IMG/VR virus record: IMGVR_UViG_3300024346_000160
Span: 1 to 42,010 of that record
Origin: a virus
Length of the DNA stretch: 42,010 nucleotides
Reading direction: 5' to 3' (one strand)
Below, piece after piece: positions 3,158 to 40,312 of this stretch. The notes beneath the pieces were generated by a model that worked only from the letters and a program-made list of their open reading frames with translations, ran no database searches and was not told the DNA's origin. A program made the translations under genes and the position numbers. Each line of letters opens with the position of its first letter. Position 1 is the first letter of the stretch.

Positions 3158-4225
3158 TTAACCTCCGAATATCATCGCCATAGCAATGATTTTACCAACG
3201 CCTACGGCGGGACCTGTTGGACCAATTGGGCCCTGAGGACCTATGTTGCTTGTGACCTGCCACGTTGAACCATCATAGATCAACTGTACCATCAAGCCCT
3301 TAACATCAAGAACTAAATTAGATGCCAATCCTTCGATCGTGGATCCATTGCGCGCAACGGTCAGGTTGTATGTAAACCAGTCGCCAGCGTCCATGAAGTA
3401 GACATAGTCGCCTGCAGCAGGAGTAGCGGGTAGCGTGACAGTGAATGCACCGCCCGCTATAGTGTCTGTTACATACTGCTTCTTAGTAGTTGCAGTAACT
3501 GCAGCAGTAATCTTTGTCCAGGCGCCACCACCAGTAGCGGCGCTAGCCTGAGTCGTACCATCAGGAAACTTAAAACCTGTTGCGGTTGATTCTATCTGTC
3601 CAGCAACAACTAGTTTGCTGCCATCGAACGTCATGTTCGCCGAACCAGCGAAGCTACCCGAGGAGTTAAACTGTACTTGGGTGTTAGATCCACCCGCGGA
3701 AGTAGTGACCGTGGTCCACGTCGGTGTGCCCGCCCCGGCTGATGTTAGTACTTGTCCAGCAGTGCCAACACCTGTGAACGCGTAGGCAGTACCAGTGCCA
3801 TAGGGAACGGCACCTGCTGTAGGAGTTGCTAATGCATTAGTACCGCCAAAGGCGATAGGTAGTTTACCAGTGACAGAAATTGCACCATCAAGAGGTAAGT
3901 AACGAGCATTGGTGAGATCGATGAATGCAGGTACACCAAGACTAGGCGCAACCAGTGTTGGGCTATTAGATAATACTACACCACCAGTACCAGTCGCGGC
4001 TGTGTTACTACCAGTACCACCATTAGCTACAGGAAGTATGCCAGTTACACCAGTCGTCAGAGGCAGTCCGGTTAGTAACGCGGCCGAGCCATTCGTCTCT
4101 AACTTATAAAAGTCTAGTGACTTAAAGTTAGCATCTACTTCTGTGTTTAGGAGCGAAGAACCCTTAGCAGTCGTAGAGGCTGGTATTGTCGGTGAAGTTG
4201 ATACCCTGTAGGTGATGAATGCCAT
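3158..4225 (-). CDS. NGGTG-type tail fibre with collagen-like C-terminus
   Basis: A 355-aa tail-fibre protein. The N-terminus (MAFITYRVSTSP, then LLNTEVDANFKSLDFYKLE) is shared with the 449-aa fibre at 5781-7130, so the two are paralogues probably attaching to the same site. Residues about 60-130 carry the ANGGTGSNTAATGTGG motif and TLVAPSLGVP, typical of beta-structured phage fibre shafts. Near the C-terminus is a short collagen-like Gly-X-Y stretch (GPQGPIGPTGP) before GKIIAMAMIFGG, an ending common in aquatic phage fibres. A T4-type late promoter (TATAAATA, minus strand) lies 65 bases ahead of the start, so it can be transcribed apart from the genes upstream. Confidence 0.8.
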   Translation of the reverse strand: MAFITYRVSTSPTIPASTTAKGSSLLNTEVDANFKSLDFYKLETNGSAALLTGLPLTTGVTGILPVANGGTGSNTAATGTGGVVLSNSPTLVAPSLGVPAFIDLTNARYLPLDGAISVTGKLPIAFGGTNALATPTAGAVPYGTGTAYAFTGVGTAGQVLTSAGAGTPTWTTVTTSAGGSNTQVQFNSSGSFAGSANMTFDGSKLVVAGQIESTATGFKFPDGTTQASAATGGGAWTKITAAVTATTKKQYVTDTIAGGAFTVTLPATPAAGDYVYFMDAGDWFTYNLTVARNGSTIEGLASNLVLDVKGLMVQLIYDGSTWQVTSNIGPQGPIGPTGPAVGVGKIIAMAMIFGG

Positions 4226-30516: not shown

Positions 30517-31247
30517 TGGCTAGTCCATCACTATATGACTTCATCAGCCAAATAAAGGGTGAAGGCTTAAGTAGAACGAACCGGTTCTTAGTAAACATAG
30601 CAAGTCCGGCCGCATTAGGTGGTAGTGATGCTAGATTGATACAACTTTACTGTGAACAAGCTGCTCTACCTGGAATGGCATACGCTTCTACTCCGGTAAG
30701 ATCTTTCGGTGAGAATCGTGAAGTAGTATACGAACGAAACTTTGAACCTATCGCATTGACGTTCTATGTTGATAGAAAGATGAGCGTATTGAGTTTCTTT
30801 AATGATTGGATGGATGCTATAGTTAATCCAAACACTAGAGTAAATAGTTATTATGATGATTATACAACACAGATGAATATCACAGTGCAGGACGTAGCAG
30901 ACAATGATACCTACGAGGTAGAATTTCGTGAAGTGTATCCTAAATCAGTTGGTGCTATACAACTTGACTATAACTCTAAAGATGTTGCTAAGCTAACTGT
31001 TACCTTTAATTATAAATACCACATAAACAAGCGTAAGGATCCCGGTGGTGGTTATGGTGAATTGCTGCAACAAGCTGGTCTGCCATTCGTTCCTGGAAGT
31101 GATGTTTATCCAGACTTTGATAATTCTGGTAACTATGCTGAGTTTAGCAGAAATGATGTCCCTGATTCATTAACAGGTGACGCTACTAGTTATTATAATG
31201 ATGGTATTGACATTCCTATCGACTATACAGAAGAAGAGTCCATATAA
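30516..31247 (+). CDS. gp54: tail tube-fold protein, baseplate-tail tube initiator gp54-like
   Basis: A 243-aa protein with the layout of the gp19/gp54 tube fold: LSRTNRFLVNIASP, then LYCEQAALPGMAYAS (the 'CEQAxLPG' phrase), ERNFEPIALTFYVDRKMSVL, SFFNDWMDAIVNP and YDDYTTQMNITVQD, then EVYPKSVGAIQLDYNSKDVA and KLTVTFNYKYH. T4 gp54 (about 320 aa) starts the tube on top of gp48, and gp19 builds it. Position away from sheath genes and close to baseplate genes favours gp54 over the main tube protein, but a gp19 role cannot be ruled out. Coupled to the upstream gene by TAATG. Confidence 0.78.
   Translation: MASPSLYDFISQIKGEGLSRTNRFLVNIASPAALGGSDARLIQLYCEQAALPGMAYASTPVRSFGENREVVYERNFEPIALTFYVDRKMSVLSFFNDWMDAIVNPNTRVNSYYDDYTTQMNITVQDVADNDTYEVEFREVYPKSVGAIQLDYNSKDVAKLTVTFNYKYHINKRKDPGGGYGELLQQAGLPFVPGSDVYPDFDNSGNYAEFSRNDVPDSLTGDATSYYNDGIDIPIDYTEEESI
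31011..31018 (+). promoter_or_regulatory. possible internal late promoter (TATAAATA)
   Basis: An exact TATAAATA inside the gp54-like gene, 231 bases ahead of the holin start. It could give extra late transcription of holin, gp16, gp26 and tape measure. It lies in coding sequence, so chance is a real alternative. Confidence 0.3.
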
Positions 31248-31248
31248 A

Positions 31249-31755
31249 ATGGTAACCAAAAAACTCCCTACAAGGCCAGTTAAGAAAGAAGACTGGATGC
31301 AGACGCAATGGCGTCCGTTGATGGCCATGATGTATCTTAGTGTATGTACATTTGACTTTATCATAGCCCCTGTGCTATGGAGTGTTCTTCAAGGCCTTGA
31401 TAAAGGTAATATCTCTAGTCAATGGTCACCAATAACACTTCAAGGTGCTGGACTGTTTCACTTAGCTATGGGTGGTATACTAGGCATTGCGGCATATGGT
31501 CGCACACAGGAGAAGATCAATGGCACTGCCACTAATCCTATGAACACAACAACCTCGACTACATCATCATATACTCCATCATCATATACCCCTTCGACTT
31601 CAGCGTCTACATCATATACACCCGCTGCAGCTTCTACACCTTGGACTAGTAACACTACTACTTCTACGACTACGACTCCATTACCAGATGCTATGCCAGA
31701 TCCGGATCCAACACCAGTAGATGCGGCGCCAGTACGAGTTAGACGACAACGGTAA
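31249..31755 (+). CDS. holin
   Basis: A 168-aa membrane protein; the start is the ATG two bases after the gp54-like stop. The N-terminus (VKKEDWMQTQWRPLMAMMYL) leads into a first membrane segment (about 22-45: YLSVCTFDFIIAPVLWSVL). After the polar stretch with SSQWSPITLQGAG comes a second one (about 62-82: LFHLAMGGILGIAAYG), followed by RTQEK. This order is shared by a family of phage holins that make the timed lesion in the inner membrane at lysis. The C-terminal 75 residues are low complexity (Thr/Ser/Pro repeats such as SSYTPSSYTPS) and end in basic RVRRQR. It sits inside a structural operon, with no canonical endolysin gene beside it. Confidence 0.75.
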   Translation: MVTKKLPTRPVKKEDWMQTQWRPLMAMMYLSVCTFDFIIAPVLWSVLQGLDKGNISSQWSPITLQGAGLFHLAMGGILGIAAYGRTQEKINGTATNPMNTTTSTTSSYTPSSYTPSTSASTSYTPAAASTPWTSNTTTSTTTTPLPDAMPDPDPTPVDAAPVRVRRQR

Positions 31756-31759
31756 TACC

Positions 31760-32158
31760 ATGAAGATTCGTGATAAACTAAGTGAAGTATTTGATGTAAC
31801 TACCATACAGAGTAGGCCGGTGACAGTCATCGAGGATCGTCCAAAGGATGACACCCTCGATGACGATTATAGTGTTAGTCGTAGAAACCTCCACTCTCTA
31901 CTGGAACAGGGTCAGGAGGCGTTGTTCCATGCGCTAGAGGTTGCTAAGCAATCTGAACATCCTCGTGCATTTGAGGTTGTTGGCAACCTAATGAAGCAAC
32001 TCGCTGACATCAACCACCAACTGCTTGACCTACACTCAAAGAAGCAGAAGATAGAGTCTCCTAAGGGAGAGCAGTCAAACGTGACTAATAATGCAATATT
32101 CGTTGGCAACACGACAGAGTTAAGTCGTATGCTTGAAAACTTGAAAAGAGGAATATAA
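31760..32158 (+). CDS. gp16: small terminase subunit gp16
   Basis: A 132-aa homologue of T4 gp16, which recognises DNA and regulates the packaging motor. Family features: KIRDKLSEVFDV at the start, then DDDYSVSRRNLHSLLEQGQE with ALFHALEVAKQSEHPRAFEV and VGNLMKQLADINHQLLDLHS. I start at the ATG 5 bases after the holin stop; another in-frame ATG at 31721 lies within the holin gene and would add 13 residues. The stop overlaps the gp26 start (TAATG). The large terminase gene (gp17), which often follows gp16, is not here. Confidence 0.85.
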   Translation: MKIRDKLSEVFDVTTIQSRPVTVIEDRPKDDTLDDDYSVSRRNLHSLLEQGQEALFHALEVAKQSEHPRAFEVVGNLMKQLADINHQLLDLHSKKQKIESPKGEQSNVTNNAIFVGNTTELSRMLENLKRGI

Positions 32159-32871
32159 TGGCACTACCATCAGCAGCAACACCGAAGTACAAGCTCGTCA
32201 TCCCATCACTTAAGAAGTCTGTGACCTATCGACAGTTCTTGGTGAAGGAGGAGAAGGCATTGCTCATCGCTCAGCATAGCGAAGATCCAGACGTAATGCT
32301 AGATACGCTTAAGGGCGTCATCGCATCCTGTATCACCGAGAAGATCAACGTCGACGACCTAGCACTCTTTGATGTTGAGTACATCTTTGCGCAGCTCAGG
32401 GCTAAGTCAGTGGGTGAGATAGTTGACCTTGTTTTGAAGTGTGACACCTGCACCGATCCGCTGGCGACTGTTAAATACTCCATCGATTTGACCAAACTCT
32501 CCGTAGACATCGCAGAGGGGCATGACAAGAAGATTCTCCTATTCGACGACGTAGGTGTAATCATGAAGTATCCCTCCTTCAGCATGATCAAGCGGATGGA
32601 GGGTATCGACACTGACAACATCGATGGCCTGTTTGAGGTCATCTGTCTATGTATCGAAGCAGTCTACAATAGCGAAGAGATGTTCTACGCTCGTGATCAG
32701 TCTATGGAAGAACTACGAGACTTCGTGAACAATCTGACACAGACACAGTTTAAGAAACTGCAGCGATTCTTTGATACCATGCCAAAGCTTGAGCAGCGAG
32801 TGGTGTTCAAGTGTCCGTTATGTCATAAAGACCACGACAAGATGATCAGAGGCCTCGATTCTTTTTTCTGA
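32158..32871 (+). CDS. gp26: baseplate hub assembly chaperone gp26
   Basis: A 237-aa homologue of T4 gp26 (208 aa), needed for hub assembly. Typical features: PKYKLVIPSLKKSVTYRQFL then VKEEKALLIAQHSED, and in the middle FAQLRAKSVGEIVDL. Two Cys pairs (Cys95/Cys98 in KCDTCTD and Cys219/Cys222 in KCPLCHKDHD) could bind zinc. The last codons are TCT TTT TTC followed by TGA. The heptamer T TTT TTC is a classical -1 slippery site and the -1 frame stays open through the next small ORF, so a longer 300-aa gp26 fusion product is likely. Confidence 0.88.
   Translation: MALPSAATPKYKLVIPSLKKSVTYRQFLVKEEKALLIAQHSEDPDVMLDTLKGVIASCITEKINVDDLALFDVEYIFAQLRAKSVGEIVDLVLKCDTCTDPLATVKYSIDLTKLSVDIAEGHDKKILLFDDVGVIMKYPSFSMIKRMEGIDTDNIDGLFEVICLCIEAVYNSEEMFYARDQSMEELRDFVNNLTQTQFKKLQRFFDTMPKLEQRVVFKCPLCHKDHDKMIRGLDSFF
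32862..32868 (+). other. candidate programmed -1 frameshift site (T TTT TTC)
   Basis: In the gp26 frame the bases read TCT TTT TTC TGA, so the heptamer has the X XXY YYZ form with the zero-frame stop directly after it. Slipping back one base gives TTT TTT CTG ATC TGC and the new frame is open to the TAA at 33057-33059, adding 63 residues (LICLYHDTLMNYYKMNFS and onward). No clear downstream hairpin was found by eye. Confidence 0.65.
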
Positions 32872-32894
32872 TCTGCCTCTATCACGACACCTTG

Positions 32895-33059
32895 ATGAAC
32901 TACTACAAGATGAACTTCTCCTTAATGCAGTACCATAAATACTCATTAACCGAGATCGAGTCTATGATTCCCTTCGAGCGCGAGATATACACTGCGCTGC
33001 TGATCCAGCACCTCGAGGAAGAGAAGGCTCGGATAGAGGCACAGAAACAACGAGTATAA
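32895..33059 (+). CDS. 54-aa ORF after gp26, probable -1 frameshift extension of gp26
   Basis: As a free ORF it would start MNYYKMNFSLMQYHKYS, followed by LTEIESMIPFEREIYTALLI and QHLEEEKARIEAQKQRV. The sequence is protein-like: amphipathic helices and a charged coiled-coil-like tail. No Shine-Dalgarno precedes the ATG (CACGACACCTTG). The frame is open upstream to the slippery site at the end of gp26, so it is more likely expressed as a C-terminal extension of gp26. It stands between gp26 and the tape measure, exactly where G-GT type tail-assembly chaperone pairs are found in other tailed phages. In T4 the corresponding function may belong to gp51, but I do not claim homology. Confidence 0.7.
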   Translation: MNYYKMNFSLMQYHKYSLTEIESMIPFEREIYTALLIQHLEEEKARIEAQKQRV

Positions 33060-33074
33060 AAACAGGGATAACGA

Positions 33075-35543
33075 ATGACTGTCATAACCGCTTCACCAAC
33101 GAGCTTTCAGCAACTACTACAGTTGCAGCGCGCCTCAGTTGAACACCTTGACAGCATTCGTAGTCTGCTACAGGTTGGTGATCCTACTGCACAACTTAAG
33201 ATACTTGAGAAGCTCGAGCAGTTATCTAATGTCGACGCCAAGACACAGGCGCAACAACTTCAGGTCTCTAATACCACCAACATCATCAACGAAAAGAACG
33301 TTGAGAACATCAAGAATCTAGAGTCAACCGTCGATTCTCTTAGGACTGAGTTATCTAACACAAGCAACGCCAGTAATGCCAGTAACACAAGCAACGCCAG
33401 TAATAAATCATTAGAGTCTAAGATTGAGTCACTTAAGGTAGTTAGCAAAGAGTCGCTGAAAACTCAGATTGAAGCTCTTAAGACTGCACACGAACAAAGT
33501 AAAATCAGCGTAGAGTCACGTGTTGCAGCAAGGGAATCATTAACGACAATGCAACCCATGAGCGAGAGGTCAATCAAGACCGCAGATGAGATAAAACAAG
33601 AGATCAAGTTGATGAGGGCCGACAACGCGAAGGCTCTAAAGTTACAGATCGAGGCGATCACAACTCAACACAACACCCATACCGATGAACAGGCTAATGC
33701 TGTTGCTAAAGTAGCGGAACCTATTGAACAATATAAATCTGTTGGTGAAAAACTTAGTGATTTTAAGAACAGCGTCAAGGGTAGTGTCAGCAACGTAGTC
33801 AAGGGGATGCGTGAGTCTCCAGGCGCTATGATCAGGGGTGGTGCACAGAGTCTTGCAGCCGGCATGGTATCATCAGGTACCATCAAGAAAGGTGGGCTAA
33901 CAGACACGTTATTTGGTATCAGCAAGCGTGAAGCACGTAACGCGTTCGTCAAGAAGCAGCAGGCTCTCGACAGCGAGAAGACTGTACCTGAGTTACATAG
34001 AGACTTCGTGATCGCAGGCAAGACCGCTGCTAACATCAAAGGTGTCGACTCTAAGATCGAAGACTTTAAGAAATCAACCGGTGTAGATGACGCCACGATG
34101 GCTAAGACAAAGCAGGGCCGTGCACTGCTCGATGAAAAGGCTAAGCTCACCACTGAGTACGCCAAGGTTGATAAGGCCGGCCAGTTCGCAGCTGAGTCGA
34201 TCGGTGACGGGCGAAAAGAAGCGGAGCACAAGAATACCTCTCCAGTGCGTATGCCTGGTAGCAGAAAGTTAAGTGAGACTCCAGCGTTGATCGCAACAGT
34301 CGATCAGGCTGACGCACCTAAAGCTGCTGCAGCAGAATCAATCAAGGCTGGTAGGGTGGCTACTCTGTCTGAAGAAGATAAGAATGAACAGCTCGCAGTT
34401 GTAAAAGAACAGACGACGCTGCTCTCAAAGATTGAGGAAAACACTCGCGGCCTCATCACAACTAATACGTCTAATAGGACAGAGACAACCGCACCTAGTG
34501 ATAGTGGAGGTGGCGGTATACTAGGAAAAGCTCTAGGAGTGGCAGGTGACGCAGCCTCTGCGGCAGGATCATGGCTTAGTAAAAAGGGTGGTAAGCTAGG
34601 TAAGTTTGGTAAGATCTTAGGTATCGGTGGCATGATGGCTGGTGGCGCAGGTGCTCTAGCTGAAGGTGACGTCCTAGGTGCTGCCGCCTCAACTGGTGTA
34701 GACTTATTGGGTAGCGGCGCAACTATTGCTGAAGGCGCCGCAGGTACAGCAGCTAAAGGCGCTGGCATACTAGGCAAAGGCCTTTCCATCGCTAAGGGCT
34801 TAACTGGTGGTGTAGGTGGACTAGTAGGTGGACTAGCTTTAGACTACGCTTCTGATAAACTTAAAGAATCAGGTCATGAGAAACTAGCTGCGACCGCAGA
34901 CATAGGAAGTTCAGCGGCGTCTGGTGCAGGTGTTGGTGCTAGTATCGGAGCACTCTTTGGAGGTGTTGGTGCCATTCCTGGTGCAGCCATCGGAGGTCTA
35001 GTAGGTGGCGCTTATGGTCTCTATAAAAACGCAGGTACATTGTTTAGCAGTGAAGATGCCAAAGGCCCAAACATACCTGGGGTCGTAGAAGCAGCTGGAA
35101 GGTCAGCTCAACTCAACACTGCACAGAAGAGTGCTATGCAAGAAGCTTCTGATGCAGTTAGAACAGGAAAAGTTAAAGATTATAACTCTCAATTAGATCT
35201 AACTGATACGATCGTAGAAAAATATGGTAAAGATCTAAGCCCAATGAGTAAGACAATGTTAGAAGGTCAGGTTAGAAGGTCGATACAAGACAACATATCT
35301 AACCCAATATCTAACAAAGCAGATCTAATGAAGCCAACCACAACTACTGGTGTGATAGTAGAAGATCTAACGACTAAAGTTGGTGCACTGAAGGAACAAG
35401 CACCGGTTACGTCTAACAACACAGTCATAGCACCAAGCAACACCACTGTGAACAACACGACTAATACGTCTAGGATGTTTCCACCAGCTAGGAATGAAGA
35501 CTCTTCAATGGATCGTTATAGGTTCTCTAGGGGTAACTACTAA
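33075..35543 (+). CDS. tape measure-like tail protein (gp29 position)
   Basis: An 822-aa protein with good Shine-Dalgarno (AGGGA). The N-terminal third (1-215) is coiled coil (SFQQLLQLQRASVEHLDSIR; LEKLEQL), including a short SNT/SNA repeat at about 94-111. The middle (about 475-660) is Gly/Ala-rich and hydrophobic (GKALGVAGDAASAAGSWLSK, GIGGMMAGGAGALAEGDVLG, LVGGLALDYASDKLKE), like the membrane-inserting part of tape measure proteins. The C-terminus is Asn/Thr-rich and ends SSMDRYRFSRGNY. At roughly 0.15 nm per residue it would set a tail of about 120 nm; this is a family rule of thumb. It follows gp26, as T4 gp29 belongs with the hub genes. The plus-strand operon ends here. Confidence 0.78.
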   Translation: MTVITASPTSFQQLLQLQRASVEHLDSIRSLLQVGDPTAQLKILEKLEQLSNVDAKTQAQQLQVSNTTNIINEKNVENIKNLESTVDSLRTELSNTSNASNASNTSNASNKSLESKIESLKVVSKESLKTQIEALKTAHEQSKISVESRVAARESLTTMQPMSERSIKTADEIKQEIKLMRADNAKALKLQIEAITTQHNTHTDEQANAVAKVAEPIEQYKSVGEKLSDFKNSVKGSVSNVVKGMRESPGAMIRGGAQSLAAGMVSSGTIKKGGLTDTLFGISKREARNAFVKKQQALDSEKTVPELHRDFVIAGKTAANIKGVDSKIEDFKKSTGVDDATMAKTKQGRALLDEKAKLTTEYAKVDKAGQFAAESIGDGRKEAEHKNTSPVRMPGSRKLSETPALIATVDQADAPKAAAAESIKAGRVATLSEEDKNEQLAVVKEQTTLLSKIEENTRGLITTNTSNRTETTAPSDSGGGGILGKALGVAGDAASAAGSWLSKKGGKLGKFGKILGIGGMMAGGAGALAEGDVLGAAASTGVDLLGSGATIAEGAAGTAAKGAGILGKGLSIAKGLTGGVGGLVGGLALDYASDKLKESGHEKLAATADIGSSAASGAGVGASIGALFGGVGAIPGAAIGGLVGGAYGLYKNAGTLFSSEDAKGPNIPGVVEAAGRSAQLNTAQKSAMQEASDAVRTGKVKDYNSQLDLTDTIVEKYGKDLSPMSKTMLEGQVRRSIQDNISNPISNKADLMKPTTTTGVIVEDLTTKVGALKEQAPVTSNNTVIAPSNTTVNNTTNTSRMFPPARNEDSSMDRYRFSRGNY

Positions 35544-39097: not shown

Positions 39098-39367
39098 TTA
39101 GACCACCTTCAATAGTGAAGCGTTTACATTCCAGCGACCATCACGGCCGGCATCGACCTCGACCATCTTGATCTTAACCTTAGTGACGATGCCAGTCACT
39201 GGACGACCAACCCGGCCAGTCCAAGTAACCGTGGCACCGATCGTGAGCTTGTTGGCCGCGGCTCGCACTTTGGCTTGGGTCTTTTCTTTGACCATTGAAA
39301 CAATAACCCGGTTGAGGGCGATGAGTTCGTCGATGGAAGCGGCGTTGAGTTTGTCGAAGCTGATCAT
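39098..39367 (-). CDS. small beta-barrel-like early protein driven by promoter cassette 1
   Basis: An 89-aa protein starting MISFDKLNAASIDELIALNR at the first ATG after the duplicated promoter cassette, with AAGGA 8 bases ahead. The N-terminal half is a helix ending in Lys/Ala-rich KEKTQAKVRAAANK; the second half (TIGATVTWTGRVGRPVTGIV, then VDAGRDGRWNVN) reads as a small KOW/SH3-like barrel. Proteins of this plan occur in many phages but the role is not known. The upstream frame is open through the cassette (to a TTG), but the promoter elements make the ATG the better start. Confidence 0.65.
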   Translation of the reverse strand: MISFDKLNAASIDELIALNRVIVSMVKEKTQAKVRAAANKLTIGATVTWTGRVGRPVTGIVTKVKIKMVEVDAGRDGRWNVNASLLKVV

Positions 39368-39368
39368 T

Positions 39369-39454
39369 TTGCAGTCCTTGTTTGATTTGATAGAACCATT
39401 ATACCAAGATCTTGAATTACTGTACACCAATAGTTGACCGTTCTTGTCAACTAC
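39369..39454 (-). repeat. promoter cassette repeat, copy 1 (86 bp)
   Basis: Matches 40111-40196 at 82 of 86 positions with no gap. Both copies lie at the same distance (one base) ahead of the ATG of a small early gene. The repeat includes a stem-loop, a sigma70-like promoter and the Shine-Dalgarno, but no coding sequence of the gene it serves. Confidence 0.9.
39398..39453 (-). promoter_or_regulatory. stem-loop plus sigma70-like promoter, copy 1 (PeSL-like)
   Basis: On the minus strand: inverted repeat TAGTTGAC-7-GTCAACTA (39431-39453), then TGTACA (39421-39426), 17 bases, then TATAAT (39398-39403). The start of transcription would be near 39391, about 24 bases before the ATG at 39367. The stem overlaps the stop of the upstream 65-aa gene. 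Confidence 0.75.
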
Positions 39455-39916: not shown

Positions 39917-40109
39917 CCATCTCATCTTCATTTATCAACAAACGATCAGTGGGCTCGGTGCGCCACCGCAACTGAATGGGTTGATCCAGGATCAACAGGT
40001 GTTGAACTTTGCCTGCGCCATACTTTACACGACTGGACTCCACGGTGCCACTAACCCGCTGCCCTTGATACATTGCAGTGATTTTCTCGCCTTGTTTATT
40101 CCAGTTCAT
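39903..40109 (-). CDS. small conserved phage protein driven by promoter cassette 2
   Basis: A 68-aa protein starting MNWNKQGEKITAMYQGQRVS at the ATG after promoter cassette 2, with AAGGA 8 bases ahead. Further: GTVESSRVKYGAGKVQHLLI, LDQPIQLRWRTEPTDRLLIN. A small all-beta domain of a type seen in other phage early regions; no known function. It is unlike the 89-aa gene behind cassette 1, so only the control region, and not the gene, was duplicated. Confidence 0.65.
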   Translation of the reverse strand: MNWNKQGEKITAMYQGQRVSGTVESSRVKYGAGKVQHLLILDQPIQLRWRTEPTDRLLINEDEMVDIV

Positions 40110-40110
40110 C

Positions 40111-40196
40111 TTGCAGTCCTTGTTTGATTTGATAGAACCATTATACCCAGATCCGGAATTACTGTACACCAGTAGTTGACCGTTCTTGTCAACTAC
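40111..40196 (-). repeat. promoter cassette repeat, copy 2 (86 bp)
   Basis: Second copy of the 86-bp cassette at 39369-39454. The four differences are three in the promoter spacer and one that lengthens the inverted-repeat arms here to 9 bp. Confidence 0.9.
40140..40195 (-). promoter_or_regulatory. stem-loop plus sigma70-like promoter, copy 2 (PeSL-like)
   Basis: Inverted repeat TAGTTGAC-7-GTCAACTA (40173-40195), then TGTACA (40163-40168), 17 bases, TATAAT (40140-40145) on the minus strand. Same spacing to the ATG as in copy 1. Confidence 0.75.
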
Positions 40197-40285: not shown

Positions 40286-40312
40286 TAAGTTGTTGATTCA
40301 TATGGCTTTTTT
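40286..40312. repeat. 27-bp direct repeat, copy 1
   Basis: Begins TAAGTTGTTGATTCATATGG and ends in a C and six T's; identical to 40399-40425, 113 bases away. Origin unknown. Confidence 0.85.

Follow-up and report, generated by a model that had tools for sequence, protein, structure and literature searches.

In phage lambda, G binds the tape measure and T binds the tube protein, and G-T frameshifting was described by Atkins et al. 2016 as widely conserved 'except T4' (PMC5009743). The T4 proteins gp26 and gp51 are classed as hub assembly chaperones (PMC3004832). Sullivan et al. 2010 reported that the gp51 of cyanophages and of marine vibriophage is without the first ~200 residues, the cyanophage gp51 amounting to only ~20% of the full length (PMC3037559). 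Tail assembly chaperones of T4-like phages were identified by Vladimirov, Gautam & Davidson 2022 (doi 10.1016/j.virol.2021.11.003). As that work is presented in PMC10885494 and PMC12846349, the general idea of a chaperone pair in T4-like phages was already published in 2022, and the locus analysed here is a new and diverged member.

The window, meaning the whole stretch of 42,010 nucleotides that was analysed, carries a gp26-like gene whose 237-aa product gave profile matches to PF12322 T4_baseplate (E=4e-56) and to PHROG150 baseplate hub (E=4e-60). The closest named gp26 proteins are those of cyanophages, with no more than about 44% identity, and such similarities place the phage in a T4-like yet divergent lineage. 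The protein ends in ..RGLDSFF and the final codons of its gene are TCT TTT TTC TGA. As claimed in the initial annotation, a perfect T TTT TTC heptamer precedes the stop (Table 1); it sits in zero-frame phase (X XXY YYZ form) inside the overlap of gp26 and a -1 frame that is open from 43 nt before the gp26 stop. This frame runs, again as claimed, through a 54-aa open reading frame whose ATG lies within a longer extension of 63 residues (LICLYHDTLMNYYKMNFSLMQYHKYSLTEIESMIPFEREIYTALLIQHLEEEKARIEAQKQRV). The predicted gp26-extension fusion has the 300 aa initially proposed, with the junction peptide ..GLDSFFLICLYHDTLMNYYK... In-frame T TTT TTY is rare in the main genes of the window, occurring just twice in 12,785 codons (one besides the gp26 site).

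Table 1 Positions of the elements of the proposed recoding locus in the window
Feature	Position	Strand	Basis
gp26-like gene; its zero-frame product of 237 aa is the proposed short tail assembly chaperone (TAC-N / G-like)	32158..32871	+	PF12322, PHROG150
SD-like stimulator AGAGG, 10-14 nt 5' of the heptamer	32848..32852	+	anti-SD duplex, codon preference
Slippery heptamer T TTT TTC, zero-frame stop TGA (32869-32871) directly after	32862..32868	+	at this codon in all 89 distinct relatives
Extension in the -1 frame (63 codons, then TAA at 33057-33059); T-like domain; cyanophage 'gp51'	32868..33059	+	PHROG634, PHROG150
ATG inside the extension, first codon of the annotatable 54-aa ORF; regarded as not a genuine start	32895..32897	+	without SD; ATG there in 3/89 relatives only
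Candidate tape measure gene encoding 822 aa, next after the extension	33075..35543	+	position, length, Gly/Ala-rich hydrophobic segments

Two scans of IMG/VR yielded 89 related loci differing by more than 5% around the site; these loci are interrelated and not independent, hence no combined probability is stated. The initial annotation had asked whether relatives keep the slippery site and the -1 open frame. All 89 loci, in addition to named phages, retain both: the heptamer occupies the same codon pair throughout (T TTT TTC in 59, T TTT TTT in 30) and is followed in each locus by a homologous extension in the -1 frame. The codon ahead of the two Phe codons is AGT, AAT, TCT, GAT or GCT, and thus specifies four different amino acids while ending in T in every case. 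The other 85 FF dipeptides of the same genes served as a control; only two of them were encoded as T TTT TTY, codon usage leading one to expect ~0.28 per FF. With so clear a within-gene control, conservation of the heptamer is beyond chance. Over 150 nt the extension frame was free of stops in all 87 loci compared, and each other frame was closed in 87 of 87. Substitutions in the extension are distributed over codon positions 1, 2 and 3 of the -1 frame as 31, 15 and 53%, and the frame downstream of the site is under protein selection.

Analysis of the flanking sequence added to the site a signal that the initial annotation, correct as to heptamer and frame, had overlooked. A motif of the form (G)AGGG or AGAGG is conserved among the relatives 10-14 nt upstream of the heptamer. 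Its predicted duplex with the 16S anti-SD has an energy of -5.8 kcal/mol in the window and a mean of -6.66 kcal/mol over the 89 loci, which is the peak of the profile. Where this position encodes Glu, the codon is GAG in 50 loci and GAA in 8, whereas elsewhere in the genes the ratio is 492:1493 (odds ratio 19, p=6e-22). The SD-like element is under selection. Downstream of the site, predicted folding in the relatives was stronger than in control stretches (mean z -1.58 vs -0.60, p=1e-5). The window itself displays no stable downstream pseudoknot or hairpin (z +0.38), no Rfam match was found in 32700-33200, and the window contains no tRNA genes.

Profile comparisons of the extension connect it with the C-terminus of gp51. 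Its hits are the profile PHROG634 (E=9e-27), named baseplate hub assembly catalyst, and positions 237-279 of PHROG150 (E=3e-6); since the latter are the last part of that profile, PHROG150 already has members that join both parts in one protein. T4 gp26 and gp51 both belong to PF12322 and PHROG150. T4 gp51 spans the gp26 domain and the extension (PHROG150 13-280, PF12322 1-219), and T4 gp26 ends before the extension part of the PHROG150 profile. When virtual fusions from the window lineage were aligned to T4-type gp51 with hhalign, the match had a probability of 98.5% (E=2.9e-15) and was free of gaps across the junction. By sequence comparison, T4 gp51 is a paralogue of gp26 that carries the same extension as an in-frame fusion. 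No -1 extension follows T4 gp26, and T4-type gp26 nevertheless keeps ..GLKEFF.., encoded GAG/GAA TTC TTT; the heptamer is therefore no by-product of two consecutive Phe residues. In a small tree the T4-type gp26 set and the gp51 set each fell on one branch, apart from the frameshifted proteins, with the root and the exact order unsettled. The window represents a 42-kb part of the genome, and the remainder may hold a separate gp51 gene of full length. One related contig (L122) holds a T4-type gp51 gene at 2001-2746 with a frame break that falls in the middle of the gene and not at the junction; an error of sequencing or assembly is its most likely cause.

From the site, the frame, their conservation, the selected signals and the homology of the extension to T4 gp51, all of them read in the sequence, we infer shifting, its efficiency and the binding roles of the products. 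Our main reading, to which we assign a probability of about 0.9, is that gp26 and gp26-extension form a pair of tail assembly chaperones, one short (G type) and one long (G-T type), made from one gene by a -1 shift. Most ribosomes would stop at the TGA at 32869 and release the 237-aa gp26 as the short chaperone. Some would slip back one base on T TTT TTC, where both Phe tRNAs could re-pair (UUU UUC to UUU UUU), presumably aided by the SD-like AGAGG ten bases upstream. Shifted ribosomes would read on to 33059 and produce the 300-aa fusion as the long chaperone. By analogy with lambda gpG and gpGT, both forms may bind the product of the neighbouring candidate tape measure gene, and tube or hub proteins may be recruited by the helical extension; the extension might, as initially supposed, bring the tape measure to the hub. 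T4 and its close kin make the same two products from gene 26 (short) and gene 51 (long, an in-frame fusion). The proposal that gp26 and its extension are the counterpart of the G/GT pair, and the accompanying link of the T4 hub chaperones to that scheme, agree with the finding that gp26 matches the N-terminal part of gp51 and the extension its C-terminus.

The 300-aa fusion could be questioned on several grounds. Many cyanophage records annotate the extension as a separate gene from internal starts, and the ATG at 32895 would permit the same reading in the window, in which case the extension would be a separate small gene (gp51) with its own internal start, perhaps coupled to the gp26 stop. 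The initial annotation rightly noted that the 54-aa ORF has no Shine-Dalgarno sequence, and it named an own start and ribosome site in relatives as evidence against a shift; a start codon with SD within the first 20 codons of the extension was found in 0 of 89 loci. Start positions are likewise not conserved, the SD-like element lies some 25 nt before the nearest common ATG and is too distant to serve it, conservation of the extension protein reaches upstream of the usual annotated starts as far as the slip site, and T4 gp51 carries the same region fused in frame. We consequently rejected an independent start of the 54-aa ORF, and a separate gene is very improbable. Equally small is the chance that the fusion arises by transcriptional slippage on the T run instead of a ribosomal shift. 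T runs of 7-8 do occur in about a third of the relatives, but in the window and most relatives (59/89) the run stops at six T and a C comes next, the heptamer keeps one fixed phase, and the stimulator under selection is a ribosomal one; with six T in the window, slippage as the main route was rejected. An artefact of sequencing or assembly, or a single 300-aa frame broken only recently, was suggested by the fact that one single-base change would join the two frames. It is refuted, and its probability practically nil, because the same -1 layout is present in four near-identical separate contigs (99-100%) and the arrangement is shared by 89 diverged loci and by named phages.

An objection of a different kind accepts the frameshift and concerns what the products do: gp26 and gp26-extension may serve hub assembly in a manner that departs from lambda G/GT, such as catalysing the folding of the hub. 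The hub assembly class of T4 gp26 and gp51 (PMC3004832) favours such a role, and the binding role of the extension is drawn by analogy. The position before the tape measure slot and the existence of a short and a long form speak for the lambda-like role, as does a hint from the predicted fold. AlphaFold2 models of window gp26 (pLDDT 85.8) and of a T4-type gp51 (pLDDT 84.6) have a similar order of elements, with additional C-terminal helices in gp51. A Foldseek search of the PDB with the gp26 model returned the HK97 tail assembly chaperone 2ob9 with by far the top probability (0.84-0.87), though with a poor E-value (0.56) and a TM-score of 0.24/0.48; 2ob9 was absent among the matches listed for the gp51 model, and there were no credible solved structures related by sequence. 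The fold search thus points weakly toward the HK97 chaperone for the modelled gp26. Taken with its position and the two forms, this makes a hub assembly role different from that of lambda G/GT unlikely, and we retain the chaperone pair as the preferred reading.

A long ORF follows the extension in 78 relatives with a median gap of 0 nt. Profile and pairwise comparison of the 33075-35543 product with annotated tape measures gave no significant match, and the gene is a candidate tape measure gene by its position, length and composition. The extension itself contains ATAAATA, the core of a T4-type late promoter, at its HKY codons (window 32934-32941, + strand); 54 of the 87 relatives have this motif, where codon usage would predict roughly 36, and it is perhaps a promoter for the downstream gene. 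Other features of the window were also recorded. A holin-like ORF (31177-31755, + strand, PHROG3427 E=3e-6) is situated between the genes for the tail tube and the small terminase; its likely start is the ATG at 31249, shortly past the stop codon of the tube gene. Through a 91-nt direct repeat (95%) at 39364-39454 and 40106-40196, two minus-strand ORFs share the N-terminal stretch VYSNS..YNGSIKSNKDCKM. Another repeat, perfect over 27 nt, is present at 40286 and 40399.

Among named phages, T TTT TTY and the -1 frame were found in S-CAM3, P-SSM2, Syn33, ACG-2014e, S-B68, HTVC008M and Melnitz-3 (Kyanoviridae), likewise in phiM12, phiW-14 and ACP17, and within the Straboviridae in VH7D (Schizotequatrovirus), AS-szw and VmeM-32 (Emmerichvirinae). 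Ackermannviridae and Vibrio phage D493 have a similar -1 extension after gp26 (loci L108, from Salmonella phage S117, L112, and L113, from D493); their site reads ATTTTC or CTTTTC, not the canonical heptamer, and is possibly a single-tRNA slip variant. The slippery site and unannotated -1 extension of Aeromonas phage AS-szw, which we take to be of the Aeh1 kind (Ceceduovirus), lie just after position 4196 of its locus (L124). This extension may account for the gp51 reported absent in Aeh1 (PMC3037559), and a frameshift in cyanophage gp26 explains the 'truncated' gp51 remarked by Sullivan et al. 2010. Such annotation puzzles thereby turn into a recoding event that can be tested, in marine viruses of very high abundance; in many database records the extension figures as a gene of its own whose start was chosen arbitrarily. 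We consider it fairly probable that frameshifted gp26 is ancestral in the T4 superfamily and was replaced by duplication in the T4 branch, where gene 26 would have lost the slippery codons and the extension and gene 51 would have fixed the fusion. If so, the frameshift was kept even in some Straboviridae (Schizotequatrovirus VH7D, Emmerichvirinae), a two-part cassette of SD-like element and T TTT TTY is conserved outside the T4 branch, and the superfamily offers a natural experiment in which translational control of the ratio was traded for separate genes. Our results support T4 being an exception through gene duplication, not through lacking the chaperone pair. The initial annotation's link of T4-type chaperones to G/GT is upheld, but the idea itself belongs to Vladimirov et al. 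2022; what is gained over that concept is evidence, breadth and the SD-like stimulator, not a new principle. No earlier report of the selected SD-like element, or of the occurrence in VH7D and Emmerichvirinae, was found in the portion of the literature covered.

Comparison with described systems serves to define the locus further. The E. coli dnaX frameshift cassette has an SD-like element about 10 nt upstream of its slippery heptamer and resembles the window in this placing; it differs in the heptamer and in its cellular function, and its downstream hairpin has no evident equivalent in the window. Lambda gpG/gpGT resembles the window in having a short extension, reached by a -1 shift at the 3' terminus of the gene for the short chaperone, directly ahead of the tape measure slot, whereas the slippery sequence differs (T TTT TTC in the window), an SD-like stimulator is present here, and no sequence link of window gp26 to lambda G was seen. 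In phage Adele (Vandenendeviridae/Andersonviridae) the chaperone locus also has a poly-T motif and a -1 open frame, both conserved, before the tape measure (PMC12846349); with a GTTTTT motif and in other phage families, this locus is likened to ours by layout. The gp26 and 'gp51' of cyanophages (Kyanoviridae) are identical to the window in layout, heptamer and extension, although the window phage is diverged from them (its gp26 reaches no more than about 44% identity with any named record). T4 possesses the same two forms, the PF12322 domain alone and the domain with the same C-terminal extension, but encodes them in two separate genes on opposite strands, whereas the window phage has one gene and a -1 shift.
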